The notes under the pieces were generated by a model, which was not told the DNA's origin, did not search any database, and saw only the letters and a list, made by a program, of their open reading frames with translations. From assembly GCF_009696175.1 (NCBI RefSeq), contig NZ_VUMM01000002.1:62001-126000 (forward strand): DNA of 64,000 bases. The letters are read 5' to 3'. A program made the translations under genes and the position numbers. Every line of letters starts with the position of its first letter. The stretch's first letter is position 1. Source of the DNA: Floccifex porci. GTDB taxonomy: Bacteria > Bacillota_I > Bacilli_A > Erysipelotrichales > Erysipelotrichaceae. Shown piece by piece: positions 3,481 through 9,344 of the stretch.

Positions 3481-4455
3481 TATAATTCCAATAAATATCA
3501 CAATAAGAAGAAGGACAAATCCATGGATTTTCCATCTTATGGATAAATATCCTATAAATTCACGAATCAGTGCATTCAATGTAAAATACCACTTTGTTTG
3601 TGATCCATATCCAACACAGCGAATTCCCTGTTTTTTTGCCAGGATCAAAGCTCTGAAAACATGATAGGAAGTGGTAACGATTGCCACTCTTTTAACAGGT
3701 TCTTCCATTTTCATTCTGGAATACATCAGATTTTCATATGTGTCTTTTGACTGATTTTCAATAAGAATGCGACTGGGATCCACACCCTTTTTAAGCGCAT
3801 ATTCTGCCATTGCTTCGGCTTCGGCCATGTCTTCTCCCTGTCCCTGACCACCTGAAAATATAAGAATGGAATCTGGATTTTTACGATACAGTTCAATTCC
3901 TTTTTCGATACGAGAAGCTAATAAAGGAGGAACTTTATCTTTGAATATGGCACATCCTAATACAACAATATACTGAAAATTATGATTTTTTCGAATATGC
4001 ATCAGATTTAATATGGCCGATACAACATAAATGGACATAATAAATAATAAATAAAATGCCGATATTTCAATCATGGCATATCCTTTAAAAAGAAGAGGGT
4101 CTTCTTTAATAGAACCATTGAACCAGGCTGAAACCAGTAAAAGAATCGCAAATACAAAGAATAAAGATAATAAATTCGAATAATGAAATCCTTCTTTTTT
4201 CAATATATTGATTCCTTCAATAAAATAAAAAATCAACAGGATAAAAGGAATCAGAAAGAACAAGAACAATCCAATCAATCCAATGTATATCAAAATCCTT
4301 GAAATTATAGAATCTGGAAACTGGCTGATGTATACCATCAAAATAAATAAGGTATAAAATCCTAAAGATCCTAATGCCATTAAAAATGTAAAACCACTCC
4401 AAAGTGTTCTACGATCGATGATCATAATCAAAAGAAATAAACTTAACATTATCAT
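3478..4455 (-). CDS. DUF218/YdcF-ElyC family membrane protein
   Basis: A 325-residue protein with about five hydrophobic segments in residues 1-165 and a C-terminal DUF218 domain. The domain is recognised by YIVVLGCAIFKDKVPPLLASR, FSGGQGQGEDMAEAEAMA, ENQSKDTYENL and VAIVTTSYHVFRA. Relatives (YdcF, SanA, ElyC) act in envelope integrity or are uncharacterised, so the function is open. No ribosome site precedes the ATG. Instead an extended -10 box TGG-TATGAT (4462-4470) lies six bases upstream, which predicts a leaderless mRNA. Confidence 0.85.
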   Translation of the reverse strand: MIMLSLFLLIMIIDRRTLWSGFTFLMALGSLGFYTLFILMVYISQFPDSIISRILIYIGLIGLFLFFLIPFILLIFYFIEGINILKKEGFHYSNLLSLFFVFAILLLVSAWFNGSIKEDPLLFKGYAMIEISAFYLLFIMSIYVVSAILNLMHIRKNHNFQYIVVLGCAIFKDKVPPLLASRIEKGIELYRKNPDSILIFSGGQGQGEDMAEAEAMAEYALKKGVDPSRILIENQSKDTYENLMYSRMKMEEPVKRVAIVTTSYHVFRALILAKKQGIRCVGYGSQTKWYFTLNALIREFIGYLSIRWKIHGFVLLLIVIFIGII

Positions 4456-4461
4456 AGAACT

Positions 4462-4470
4462 ATCATACCA
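4462..4470 (-). promoter_or_regulatory. Extended -10 promoter, predicted leaderless start
   Basis: Minus-strand TGG-TATGAT followed by six bases (AGTTCT) and the ATG of the DUF218 gene. The -35 region falls inside the metYA terminator and matches the consensus poorly, so the extended -10 would carry the promoter. Confidence 0.5.
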
Positions 4471-4500
4471 TAAAAAAATAAACGAAAAATTCGTTTATTT
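4471..4500 (-). terminator. Terminator of metY-metA
   Basis: An 11-bp stem AAATAAACGAA/TTCGTTTATTT (4476-4486 and 4490-4500) with a 3-nt loop is followed on the minus strand by a T-rich stretch. It overlaps the metA stop codon. Confidence 0.75.
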
Positions 4501-5472
4501 TATAAAAGCTTTTGAATATCCATGTTCATCTTTTTTACTTGTACCAATTGGATCCACATTCTGTATGTTTTCAATGACATATGGTGTTAACTGATAAACA
4601 TAATTTAACCAGTTACGATACAGTAAATTGGCATGGCTTCTCCATTTTAATATAGGTTTCTGTTCAGGATCGTCATTCAAAAAATAATTTTCAGGAATAT
4701 GAATGGGTTTTCCTTCATTTAAGTCTCTAAAATATTCCTGTGATAAAGTTTCCACTCCGTATTCAAAATGACCCGTCACAAAAATTTGACGATAATCTTT
4801 TGTGACTATGATGTTGCTGCCTGTTTTTTCTCCTTTTGACAATACAACCAGTCTTTTATCTTTTAGTAGAGCTTCTTCATCAATTTTTGTGTGACGAGAA
4901 TGAGGAGTAAAGTGATATTCATCAAATCCATTGGTTAAAAAATCATATTCATCTTCTAAATGATGTGTAAAAATTCCAAACATCTTTTCTGACAACATTT
5001 GTTTTTTAATTCCATAATGATAATATAGACCCGCCTGTGCTCCCCAGCAAATATGCATTACACTGTATACATGAGTTTTGGACCATTCCATGATCTCACA
5101 TAACTCTTTCCAGTAATCCACCTCTTCAAATTCAAGATGTTCGACAGGAGCTCCTGTAACGATCATACAATCGTAATAATTATTTAAAAAAGTATGATAA
5201 TCTTTATAAAATTTTACCAGATGTTCTTCACTTGTATTCTTTGATTTATGCGAATCAATTTTCATTAAATCAATCGATACCTGTAAAGGAGATTTACTGA
5301 TCAGTCTTAAGATTTGTGTTTCTGTTTCTATTTTTTTTGGCATTAAATTTAATATTACCATTTGAATAGGACGGACTCTCTGTTTACGAGCACTGTCATC
5401 TTCAATCGCAAAGATTTTTTCGTTTTCCAGTATTGTTTTGGCAGGCAATCCATTCTGTATATTAATTGGCAT
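4495..5472 (-). CDS. metA: Homoserine O-acyltransferase, predicted acetyl-CoA type
   Basis: First committed enzyme of methionine synthesis, acylating homoserine. The 325-residue protein starts MPINIQNGLP at 5472 behind GAGGA; an upstream ATG at 5514 in the same frame has no site. The catalytic cysteine is Cys142 (MHICWGAQ), with His235 and Glu237 in GHFEYG. Residue 111 in TGAPVE is glutamate. In this family Gly111 goes with succinyl-CoA use (E. coli) and Glu111 with acetyl-CoA use, so I predict O-acetylhomoserine as product. That matches metY directly upstream, ten bases away and co-transcribed. Confidence 0.93.
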   Translation of the reverse strand: MPINIQNGLPAKTILENEKIFAIEDDSARKQRVRPIQMVILNLMPKKIETETQILRLISKSPLQVSIDLMKIDSHKSKNTSEEHLVKFYKDYHTFLNNYYDCMIVTGAPVEHLEFEEVDYWKELCEIMEWSKTHVYSVMHICWGAQAGLYYHYGIKKQMLSEKMFGIFTHHLEDEYDFLTNGFDEYHFTPHSRHTKIDEEALLKDKRLVVLSKGEKTGSNIIVTKDYRQIFVTGHFEYGVETLSQEYFRDLNEGKPIHIPENYFLNDDPEQKPILKWRSHANLLYRNWLNYVYQLTPYVIENIQNVDPIGTSKKDEHGYSKAFIK

Positions 5473-5482
5473 AAAATCCTCA

Positions 5483-6757
5483 CTAAATATTATCGAATGC
5501 TTGCTGAAGATCAAATAAAATATCCTCTATATCTTCAATTCCAACCGATAAACGAATTAAATCTGGTTCCACTCCGCCCGCAATCAGCTCTTCATCGTTC
5601 ATTTGTCGGTGCGTAGAAGAAGCTGGATGCAGTACACAAGTATGAGCATCGGCAACATGAGTGGCAATCATCGCAATCTTCAGATTGGACATAAAGGCTT
5701 CTGCCTTTTGTCTTCCGCCTTTGATTCCAAAGGATACGACCCCACATGTCCCATCTGGCATATATTTTTTAGCTCTGTCATAGTATTTATTGGAAGGAAG
5801 AGATGGATAATTTACCCAGGCTACTTTATCATTTGACTCTAAATATTGAGCCACTTTCAATGCGTTTTCACAATGTCTAGGCATACGAACATGTAAAGAT
5901 TCCAAACCTAAATTCAATAGATACGCATTCATAGGAGCCTGAATGGACCCAAAATCTCTCATTAGCTGAGCCGTACATTTTGTGATAAACGCTCCTTCTT
6001 TTCCAAATTTTTCAGCATAAGTGATACCATGATACGAATCATCCGGTGTTGTCAGTCCTGGAAACTTATCCGCATATTTCATCCAGTCAAATTTTCCTGC
6101 ATCTACAATACATCCACCAACCGTAGCATCGTGTCCATCCATATATTTTGTGGTTGAATGTGTCACAATATCACATCCCCATTCAATTGGACGACAATTG
6201 ATTGGAGTAGCAAATGTATTATCTACAATTAAAGGAACCCCATGCTCATGTGCTTTATTGGCCCATGCTTCAATATCAAATACAATCAGAGCTGGATTGG
6301 CAATTGTTTCTCCAAATACACATTTTGTGTTTGGTTTAAAAGCCGCTTCCAGTTCTTCCATGGAACAATCTGGTGAAAGGAAAGTAAAATCAATTCCCAT
6401 TTTACGCATTGTCACATTAAATAAATTATATGTCCCTCCATAAATTGTGGATGAACAGATCACATGATCTCCATTGTTGGCGATATTAAAAATTGAATAA
6501 AAGTTGGCAGCCTGTCCACTGCTTGTCAGCATAGCTGCACTTCCTTTTTCTAAAGCACATATTTTATTGGCTACATAATCATTTGTCGGATTCTGAAGAC
6601 GTGTATAAAAATACCCTTCTGCTTCCAGATCAAATAATTTTCCCATATCTTCACTTGTATCGTATTTAAACGTTGTACTTTGTACAATTGGAATCATTCT
6701 TGATTCTCCATTTTTAGGTGTATATCCAGCCTGAATACATTTTGTAGCTTGTTTCAT
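5483..6757 (-). CDS. metY: O-acetylhomoserine sulfhydrylase (Cys/Met metabolism PLP enzyme)
   Basis: A 424-residue PLP enzyme that joins O-acetylhomoserine with sulfide to make homocysteine. The PLP lysine is Lys204 in THSTTKYMDGH. SSGQAANFYS, DNTFATPINCRP and LIRLSVGIED are typical of the MetY branch, as is the length (MetB/MetC proteins are near 380). It precedes metA in a two-gene methionine operon. The 82-base upstream gap is too short for a SAM riboswitch and none is visible, so the regulation of this operon is not evident from sequence. Confidence 0.93.
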   Translation of the reverse strand: MKQATKCIQAGYTPKNGESRMIPIVQSTTFKYDTSEDMGKLFDLEAEGYFYTRLQNPTNDYVANKICALEKGSAAMLTSSGQAANFYSIFNIANNGDHVICSSTIYGGTYNLFNVTMRKMGIDFTFLSPDCSMEELEAAFKPNTKCVFGETIANPALIVFDIEAWANKAHEHGVPLIVDNTFATPINCRPIEWGCDIVTHSTTKYMDGHDATVGGCIVDAGKFDWMKYADKFPGLTTPDDSYHGITYAEKFGKEGAFITKCTAQLMRDFGSIQAPMNAYLLNLGLESLHVRMPRHCENALKVAQYLESNDKVAWVNYPSLPSNKYYDRAKKYMPDGTCGVVSFGIKGGRQKAEAFMSNLKIAMIATHVADAHTCVLHPASSTHRQMNDEELIAGGVEPDLIRLSVGIEDIEDILFDLQQAFDNI

Positions 6758-6824
6758 TTCACCATCTCCGTTCTATGTTTTCTATTTTATCAAAAACTTC
6801 TTTCTTTTTAAAACCTATTTTTTA

Positions 6825-6833
6825 TGCTAATGT
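6825..6833 (+). promoter_or_regulatory. Extended -10 promoter, predicted leaderless start
   Basis: TGC-TAATGT (6825-6833) is followed by six bases (ATTTCT) and the ATG at 6840. No Shine-Dalgarno sequence precedes the start codon and the -35 match is poor. Confidence 0.4.
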
Positions 6834-6839
6834 ATTTCT

Positions 6840-9344
6840 ATGAATAAAAAAATATGTGTCGGAATTTTAGCCCATGTTGATGCTGGAAAAACCACTTTAA
6901 TTGAAAGTATGTTATACACATCCGGTCAGATCCGTAAATTAGGAAGAGTTGATCATAAAGATGCTTTTTTAGATTATGATAAACAGGAAAGAGATCGAGG
7001 AATTACTATTTATTCAAAAGAAGCTTTCTTTTCATGGAAAAATACGGATATTTTTGTTCTGGATACACCTGGTCATATCGATTTTTCAAGTGAAATGGAA
7101 CGAACTTTACAGGTTCTGGATTTAGCTATTGTCCTGATCAATGGTCAGGATGGCATACAAAGTCATAGTGAAACCATATGGAAATGTCTGGCTCATTATC
7201 AGGTTCCCACTCTTATATTTATTAATAAGATGGATATTTCTTATCATTCAAAAGAAGAATTAATGAAAGATATACATGAGAAATTTTCCGAGAACTGTAT
7301 TGATTTTACTCAGAATGATCTTTATGAATCTTTAGCTATGATCAATGATTCTTTATTAAATGAATATATGAACTCTCAATCTATATCCTTATCTTCCATT
7401 CAGAATATCGTCTTTAAAAGAGAATGTTTCCCTTGTTTTTTTGGAAGTGCCTTAAAACTGGAAGGAATTGAAAATTTACTGGATGCGATGGGAGATTATA
7501 CACTTGAAAAAGAGTATGGGAATGAATTTGGCGCAAAAATCTATAAAATCACAATGGATGAACAAGGAAATCCATTAACTCATATTAAAATCACAAGTGG
7601 AACTTTAAAAGCCAAACAGAAACTGAATGAAGACAATAAAGTGGATCAGATTCGTCTATATAATGGTAAAAACTATACCCTGGTCAATGAAGCCAGTGCC
7701 GGAATGATCTGTACCCTTAAAGGTTTAGAAAACTATGAAGTCGGTCAAGGTTTAGGAATAGAAACCGACAGTGAAAAGCCATTGTTGAATGCGTGTTTGA
7801 ATTATCATCTTTTATTACCCGATGGATTTGATCCCATTCAGATGAAAAAGGTATGCGATCAGCTGGAAAGTCAGGATCCTTCTTTACATATAGAATACGA
7901 TACTGCTTTAAAAAAGATTTCTATACAGCTTATGGGTGACATTCAAATGGAAGTACTCCAGAAAAAGATCGAACAGGAAACCGGAATTCAGGTTGGTTTT
8001 TCAACCGGCAATGTCATCTTTAAAGAAACCATTGCCGATACCGTTACCGGAGTTGGTCATTTCGAACCTTTGCGTCATTATGCAGAAGTTCATTTAAAAT
8101 TAGAGCCTTTAAAAAGAAACAGTGGACTTCAATTTGAAAGTGATGTTTCTATGGATGATCTGTCTTTAAACTGGCAAAGGCTGATATTGACCCATCTGCA
8201 GGAAAAGAAACATAAAGGTGTATTAACAGGTTCTCCAATCACCGATATGAAAATCACTTTGATTGCTGGTAAAAGTCATTTGAAACATACCGAAGGTGGA
8301 GATTTCAGACAGGCTACCTATCGTGCCGTTCGTCAAGGTTTAAAGAAAGCCCAGTCTATATTATTAGAACCTTATTATTCCTTTACTTTACAATTGGATG
8401 CTCATACACTTTCAAAAGCTTTATACGATTTAGAAACAAGACAGGCAAAAGTATCCATAGAAGATAATGGAGATGGAAAAGTGATTCTTCATGGAAGAGG
8501 TCCTGTACGTTATCTGATGAATTATCATAAAGATGTAATTGCTCTAACAAGGGGAAAAGGAGTCTATTCTTGTCAGTTGGATGGATACGATGAATGTAAA
8601 GATGCCAATTCCATTATTGAATCCATTGGATATGATAGTGAACAGGATTTTAAAAATCCAACCGGTTCTGTATTCTGTACGCATGGTTCTGGATTCTATG
8701 TACCTTATGACGAAGTTGAAAATTATATGCATATTAAACCAAAAGTTGAAAATACAAGTTCTTATTCTTCTTCTAAATACAATATAAAGGAAGAAGAAGT
8801 CCAACGAGTTTTTAATATGATTTCAGGTCAGAATCAAAACAAAAAGAAACAGTACCAGAAAAAGAAAAAGAAAGAAGATTTTTCTTATCAAAGAGTGGAA
8901 ATTGAAAAGAAACTGCCTGAATGTTTAATTGTTGATGGATACAATCAGATATATGGATGGGATTCTTTAAAATCCTATGCTTCTAAAGATATAGCTTATG
9001 CCCGTGATGAACTGATTCAGCTGCTTGTAAATTATCAGGGATATAAGAATATTAAACTGATTCTGGTATTTGATGCCTATCGTGTTAAAGATGGTTCCTG
9101 TCGTAATTCAAAATATGGTGATACACAGGTTATCTATACAAATTATGGACAGACTGCAGACAGTTATATTGAAAAACTGGTTCATGATCTAAAAGGAAAA
9201 TACAGTTTAACGGTTGCCTCTTCCGATGCTCTGATTCAGAATTCGATAATGGCAAGTGGAGCGAAACGAATGAGTGCAAGAGAACTGGAAATGAGAGTTA
9301 GAAATGTGAACAAAGAAGCATTTAAAGCATTAAAGGAGGGCTAG
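6840..9344 (+). CDS. TetM-like ribosome-protection GTPase fused to a YacP/Rae1 NYN endoribonuclease
   Basis: An 834-residue fusion. Residues 1 to about 635 follow TetM/TetO and EF-G: AHVDAGKT (11-18), RGITI, DTPGH, NKMD, and a domain IV with HTEGGDFRQATYRAVRQGL and LEPYYSF. All GTP-binding motifs look intact. A lysine-rich linker (about 655-690) leads to a complete NYN nuclease domain of the YacP/Rae1 family (about 692-834): VDGYN at 697-701, LVFDAY, QTADSYIEKL, SSDALIQ and RMSARELEMRV. Rae1 of Bacillus subtilis cuts mRNA in the ribosomal A site, where TetM-like domain IV also binds. I infer a GTP-driven, ribosome-coupled mRNA nuclease or rescue factor rather than a tetracycline resistance protein. 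Confidence 0.88.
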   Translation: MNKKICVGILAHVDAGKTTLIESMLYTSGQIRKLGRVDHKDAFLDYDKQERDRGITIYSKEAFFSWKNTDIFVLDTPGHIDFSSEMERTLQVLDLAIVLINGQDGIQSHSETIWKCLAHYQVPTLIFINKMDISYHSKEELMKDIHEKFSENCIDFTQNDLYESLAMINDSLLNEYMNSQSISLSSIQNIVFKRECFPCFFGSALKLEGIENLLDAMGDYTLEKEYGNEFGAKIYKITMDEQGNPLTHIKITSGTLKAKQKLNEDNKVDQIRLYNGKNYTLVNEASAGMICTLKGLENYEVGQGLGIETDSEKPLLNACLNYHLLLPDGFDPIQMKKVCDQLESQDPSLHIEYDTALKKISIQLMGDIQMEVLQKKIEQETGIQVGFSTGNVIFKETIADTVTGVGHFEPLRHYAEVHLKLEPLKRNSGLQFESDVSMDDLSLNWQRLILTHLQEKKHKGVLTGSPITDMKITLIAGKSHLKHTEGGDFRQATYRAVRQGLKKAQSILLEPYYSFTLQLDAHTLSKALYDLETRQAKVSIEDNGDGKVILHGRGPVRYLMNYHKDVIALTRGKGVYSCQLDGYDECKDANSIIESIGYDSEQDFKNPTGSVFCTHGSGFYVPYDEVENYMHIKPKVENTSSYSSSKYNIKEEEVQRVFNMISGQNQNKKKQYQKKKKKEDFSYQRVEIEKKLPECLIVDGYNQIYGWDSLKSYASKDIAYARDELIQLLVNYQGYKNIKLILVFDAYRVKDGSCRNSKYGDTQVIYTNYGQTADSYIEKLVHDLKGKYSLTVASSDALIQNSIMASGAKRMSARELEMRVRNVNKEAFKALKEG

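Follow-up and report, generated by a model that had tools for sequence, protein, structure and literature searches.

A predicted translational GTPase–Rae1 endonuclease fusion in place of the free rae1 gene in Floccifex porci and related Firmicutes

Architecture of the fusion gene and its product

In the stretch of DNA analyzed here, hereafter the window (64,000 nucleotides of Floccifex porci contig NZ_VUMM01000002.1), a single uninterrupted frame opens with ATG on the plus strand and occupies positions 6840–9344, encoding a protein of 834 residues before its stop codon. Pfam and AlphaFold2 divide the product into three parts: an EF-G/Tet-like translational GTPase (residues 1–632), a disordered linker (residues 633–691), and a complete YacP/Rae1 nuclease (residues 692–834).

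The GTPase half (6840–8735, plus strand; delimited by Pfam, alignment, and AlphaFold2) comprises domains G, II, III, IV, and V, followed by a short extension at the C-terminus whose last residues are VENYMHI. Pfam matches GTP_EFTU at residues 5–220 (E-value 6e-50), EFG_IV at 390–505 (2e-20), and EFG_C at 508–588 (2e-14), along with EF-G_D2, while the matches to EFG_III and GTP_EFTU_D2 fall under their Pfam cut-offs. Pfam, the alignment, and the AlphaFold2 model agree on the architecture and the G1, G3, and G4 motifs of the EF-G/EF2 family, and in a structure search the model resembles EF-G structures. Its mean pLDDT is 86.7, with the GTPase and NYN domains well folded and values below 50 at residues 637–651 and 660–688 of the linker.

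The NYN endonuclease domain (8913–9341, plus strand; Pfam, structure match, and alignment) is matched by NYN_YacP (PF05991) at residues 696–831 with an E-value of 2.5e-40 and 138.7 bits, against a Pfam gathering threshold of 24.6, over positions 1–138 of the 166 in the profile. The C-terminal 151 residues, which include 692–834, match the Bacillus subtilis YacP/Rae1 structures 5mq8 and 5mq9 (1.6e-20), and the DGYN, VFDA, TAD, and SD motifs of the fusion align with those structures. Among 51 aligned fused proteins, residues D699, N702, D745, T772, A773, D774, E778, S795, and D796 are invariant. The GTP and nuclease motifs listed in an earlier note, written from the DNA letters and their translations, are likewise invariant or nearly so in this alignment. 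That note had read the frame as a TetM/EF-G-like GTPase joined to Rae1, with residues 692–834 as a YacP/NYN domain; Pfam, AlphaFold2, and the alignment bear out the joint architecture, and the profile score just given confirms the domain.

Gene start and neighborhood

About six bases 5′ of the ATG we find an extended −10-like element, TATGCTAATGT (TGNTANNNT), which is assigned by consensus match only (6823–6842, plus strand). Within the window's clade (L003, L004, L005, L086, and L225 were inspected), the element stands at the start of this gene, and no Shine-Dalgarno sequence is present at this start in the window or in the clade members inspected. Because the element lies so near the ATG and a Shine-Dalgarno sequence is missing, the start in this clade is probably leaderless, as the sequence suggests. 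The pattern TATGNTANNNTN6ATG has only two matches in the window (0.39 expected), at 4453–4472 on the minus strand and 6823–6842 on the plus strand. Both stand at gene starts, those of a DUF218 gene at 4455 and of the fusion, hinting that leaderless starts could be common in this genome.

On the minus strand (4495–6757), the divergent neighbors encode a homoserine O-succinyltransferase-family protein and a PLP enzyme of Cys/Met metabolism. The two genes overlap by about 30 bases; the PLP enzyme gene is also found upstream of the fusion in one other genome (G003). Across 84 loci we detected no conserved operon or defense island around the fusion.

Distribution of the fusion and earlier reports

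A YacP domain occurs in 219 of the 316 genomes from the window's order, mostly in frames of about 830–930 aa. At the level of the class, for which the sampled genomes had a completeness of 90% or more, 41 of 43 above-cut-off NYN_YacP matches lie in frames of at least 800 aa. The 45 genomes with such a locus each encode exactly one YacP domain, fused in 42 (a count that includes three loci split by apparent frameshifts) and standalone in 3. The loci L103, L121, and L135 seem to be split in this manner, with the GTPase and the NYN domain in adjacent frames. Carriers of the fusion include Beduini, Longibaculum, Mediterraneibacter, Robinsoniella, Faecalibacterium, and Agathobacter, and it is retained in the Erysipelotrichales, Lachnospiraceae, and Oscillospiraceae. 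The survey across genomes that the earlier note had proposed thus finds the architecture in well over 100 genomes; because fused frames turn up repeatedly in the order, the class, and Bacillota_A, a sequencing or assembly artifact joining two genes is ruled out.

Fusions of this kind have been mentioned before. Tet proteins of ten Clostridiales species were reported to have gained a YacP-like NYN RNase domain, with the brief remark that such a fusion may be a novel mechanism of tetracycline resistance (Atkinson 2015, PMC4342817). Matched on their described architecture, a Tet-like translational GTPase with a C-terminal YacP-like NYN domain, these proteins very probably belong to the same family as the fusion described here. 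The earlier note could not say whether the architecture had been studied and knew of no experimental work; it has in fact been in print since 2015, and full-text literature searches returned no experiments or biochemical data on the GTPase–Rae1 fusion. Beyond that report, we describe the replacement of rae1, a loop unlike that of Tet proteins, a conserved motif in the linker, and members from the Erysipelotrichales.

The fusion in place of free rae1

Rae1 of B. subtilis attacks mRNA within the ribosomal A site (PMC12320835). It resembles the nuclease half of the fusion in having an NYN domain with all catalytic motifs and one copy per genome, and its ribosome-dependent cleavage of mRNA is the known activity of this relative. 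The two differ in their setting. B. subtilis encodes Rae1 as a separate protein, about 170 aa long, in the cysS-mrnC-rlmB-sigH operon, and the order rlmB-rae1-sigH is found in B. subtilis, Listeria, and Clostridioides difficile, whereas the fused domain is the C-terminal part of an 834-aa GTPase encoded away from those genes. In the window's genome, cysS, mrnC, rlmB, and sigH (names assigned by sequence resemblance and order) follow one another with a gap of only about 20 bases at the usual site of rae1, and a profile search finds a single YacP domain. Although the fusion does not hold the rlmB-sigH position typical of Rae1, that position is a habit of the family and not a sequence criterion. 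Several records labeled as plasmids (L189, L190, and 12 from C. difficile of 97–150 kb; B. subtilis pBSUNA05-1 is among them) carry the chromosomal block cysS-rlmB-rae1-sigH-nusG-rplA, and for this reason look like segments of chromosomes.

The same pattern holds in a panel of 20 genomes: rae1 follows rlmB in all six with a standalone copy, and a sigH-like gene follows rlmB directly, without rae1, in 13/13 fused genomes (one further fused genome was unreadable and was left out). Counting the window's own genome, all 14 fused genomes examined lack rae1 at the rlmB-sigH junction. A profile of the GTPase identifies a member of the subfamily in 37 of 398 sampled Bacillota_A genomes, fused in 30 and unfused in 7. 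Exactly one YacP domain is present in every one of the 30 fused genomes, compared with 199 of the remaining 368. At the rate seen in non-fused genomes, the chance of zero free copies among 30 would be near 1e-10, although the genomes are kin and their counts not independent, so the real chance is less extreme. Individual checks of 72 fused genomes gave one Rae1 domain each. The idea that fused and free Rae1 coexist as specialized copies is ruled out, as the two never occur together in the genomes checked. Judged by gene content and order, then, the fusion substitutes for the ordinary rae1 gene and is predicted to encode the cell's only Rae1 endonuclease.

A GTPase subfamily distinct from the Tet proteins

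The GTPase half shares its fold and GTP motifs with elongation factor G. A profile search reveals two further EFG_IV genes in the same genome, and in our tree the fusion GTPase groups with other fused GTPases, away from these two EF-G-type proteins. Because the genome retains them, the fusion GTPase is not the housekeeping translocase.

Like Tet(M) and Tet(O), with which it shares about 31% identity, the fusion contains a five-domain EF-G-like GTPase, and TetM is its nearest solved structure by sequence (E-value 4e-75). The resemblance ends at domain IV, the loops of which dislodge the drug in Tet proteins (Atkinson 2015, PMC4342817). The tip loop of the fusion, HLKHTEGGDFR (residues 480–490; 8277–8309, plus strand), is a signature of its GTPase subfamily: the alignment shows HxKHTEGGDFR in 38 of 39 subfamily sequences, as against YYSPVSTP[AS]DFR in 7/7 Tet proteins, and the Tet sequence YYSPVSTPADFR is absent from the tip in the fusion. 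Neither this loop nor the GHFEPLRHYAEV segment varies among the 51 fused proteins. Against the curated NCBIfam Tet model, the fusion scores 392 bits, far under the cut-off of 775, while a TetM control scores 874. In the tree, the Tet proteins form one group (support 99/99), and fused and unfused members of the subfamily form another (96/97); the very long branches of the EF-G outgroup leave the root uncertain. The fusion also differs from Tet(M) and Tet(O) in its C-terminal extension and nuclease. The TetM-type ribosome-protection identity implied in the earlier note therefore fails, on the clade and on the loop. By its sequence, the fusion GTPase is assigned to a subfamily of its own, related to EF-G and Tet and without the defining sequence features of Tet proteins.

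Database naming has followed the Tet resemblance. Public annotation places the Agathobacter rectalis copy (L187, 2643–5444) in the TetM/TetW/TetO/TetS family of resistance proteins, and yet this copy has the non-Tet domain IV loop. Such names in public records may inflate counts of resistance genes in gut genomes. Separately, TetM and TetO occur as near-identical copies in two genomes of the window's order that are without the fusion (L229 in G059 and L230 in G054).

The linker and its conserved motif

The linker (8736–8912, plus strand; alignment and AlphaFold2) is predicted to be mainly disordered, and by a rough cut its length ranges from 49 to 261 residues across the fused proteins. The earlier note called it lysine-rich, which is true of the window's clade but not of the family, since 82 fused linkers are of mixed charge (E 11.5%, K 9.3%) and share instead a conserved ELxxIFxRTYG. 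The clade's divergent version of this helix motif is EEEVQRVFNMISGQ (residues 651–664; 8790–8831, plus strand; alignment and AlphaFold2). The motif is found in 66 of the 82 linkers, where 0.7 would be expected after shuffling, and its strict form E[LV]xxI[FY]x[RKQE][TA][YF]G in 48 (0 expected). An AlphaFold2 model of a second family member, L153, places a helix at the motif with low confidence. Our guess is that the motif makes contact with the ribosome or with a partner.

Origin of the fusion and its unfused relatives

Unfused members of the GTPase subfamily, represented by L226 in Clostridium sp. 12(A) and by L227, are 40–42% identical to the window's GTPase over about 630 aa and have the HTEGGDFR loop. 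They differ from the fusion in having no nuclease domain, and their genomes may or may not encode a separate Rae1. Both of these complete proteins extend only to the residue at which the linker of fused proteins begins, and hence stop short of the linker motif.

In the nuclease tree, the fused Rae1 domains and three standalone copies of Lachnospiraceae type form one clade (100/98) apart from other standalone Rae1. One of the three, L140, lies in the ordinary cysS-rlmB place, and each of the three genomes also has an unfused GTPase with 40–42% identity to the window's. The three copies are nested within the fused clade, where branch support is weak; they may be products of fission or may preserve the state before fusion. 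The simplest account has the two genes fusing once and the product then spreading by vertical descent, perhaps with some lateral transfer.

We also considered whether the GTPase and Rae1 always co-occur, which was not upheld: among the seven Bacillota_A genomes with an unfused GTPase, Rae1 is present in four, a proportion near the base rate of 54%, and absent from three. As separate proteins they are thus not obligate partners. The GTPase probably serves some function independent of Rae1, and the case for cooperation gains nothing from co-occurrence.

A proposed function at the ribosome

The A site is where EF-G and the Tet proteins act and where a domain IV of the EF-G type is placed. Rae1 of B. 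subtilis is active on ribosomes without any fused GTPase, so the GTPase is not needed for the chemistry of Rae1. In our view, the fusion is most economically explained if a GTPase that binds ribosomes delivers a nuclease that depends on them, and we think it probable, with some reserve, that the protein serves as a housekeeping factor, encoded on the chromosome, whose translational GTPase brings Rae1 to the ribosome through a flexible tether or gates it there. Starting from the conserved active sites and the replacement of free Rae1, we infer a cycle in which the GTPase would bind ribosomes with a free or blocked A site, and the HxKHTEGGDFR tip of domain IV would probe or clear the decoding site. 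GTP hydrolysis and withdrawal would then let the tethered Rae1 domain enter the A site and cut the mRNA, so that decay of the message could begin and the ribosome be freed for rescue. The weakest step of the scheme is a possible docking of the linker helix motif onto the ribosome or the GTPase. Against the proposal stand the GTPase-independent activity of B. subtilis Rae1, the absence of Rae1 from some genomes with an unfused GTPase, and the competition for the A site that domain IV and Rae1 would face; because both are expected there, they probably act in turn.

The two halves might instead work separately, with the tether merely setting their ratio or aiding folding. The long, variable, disordered linker, the unfused GTPases of three of seven genomes that are without Rae1, and the solitary activity of B. 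subtilis Rae1 would all fit such a fusion of convenience. We nonetheless regard it as unlikely, given a conserved motif within the linker and the long retention of the fusion in the Erysipelotrichales, Lachnospiraceae, and Oscillospiraceae, where the separate gene has been lost. An anti-phage or toxin-like system that halts translation upon infection, the defense reading raised in the earlier note, draws on the fact that ribosome-directed nucleases are common effectors. It is barely credible for a single-copy stand-in for a housekeeping gene that has no recurring neighbors in the 84 loci and for which a PADLOC search of anti-phage defense matched 0 families.

Nor do we give much credit to an enzyme of rRNA or tRNA maturation that the GTPase directs to ribosomes: a role in the maturation of stable RNA was once proposed for NYN domains (cited in Atkinson 2015, PMC4342817), but the catalytic domain belongs to the family of Rae1, the characterized close relative, which cuts mRNA on the ribosome (PMC12320835). 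The published suggestion that the fusion is a tetracycline ribosome-protection protein with a gained RNase domain, and as such a new form of antibiotic resistance (Atkinson 2015, PMC4342817), has on its side the closeness of TetM among solved structures and the Tet name of the Agathobacter copy. The fusion GTPase nevertheless lies outside the Tet clade, bears another loop, and scores far below the curated cut-off. It also stands in for a chromosomal housekeeping gene, and two fused genomes (G868 and G927) have in addition a separate, Tet-sized protein of 644 aa (392 bits on the GTPase profile). We consider resistance very improbable.

The housekeeping delivery of Rae1 that we prefer can be taken further, if tentatively. 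The fusion might represent its own class of translational GTPase, one that inspects stalled ribosomes and, after hydrolysis, passes a tethered nuclease into the A site. Under this same speculative but possible reading, it would act as a machine for mRNA surveillance that is gated by GTP and contained in a single protein, and that stands in for free Rae1 in many gut Firmicutes. If this is true, sensing and mRNA cutting would be combined in one chain, a bacterial counterpart in principle to the GTPase-assisted sensors of stalled ribosomes in eukaryotes, and the fusion makes the question of how Rae1 chooses its ribosomes testable.
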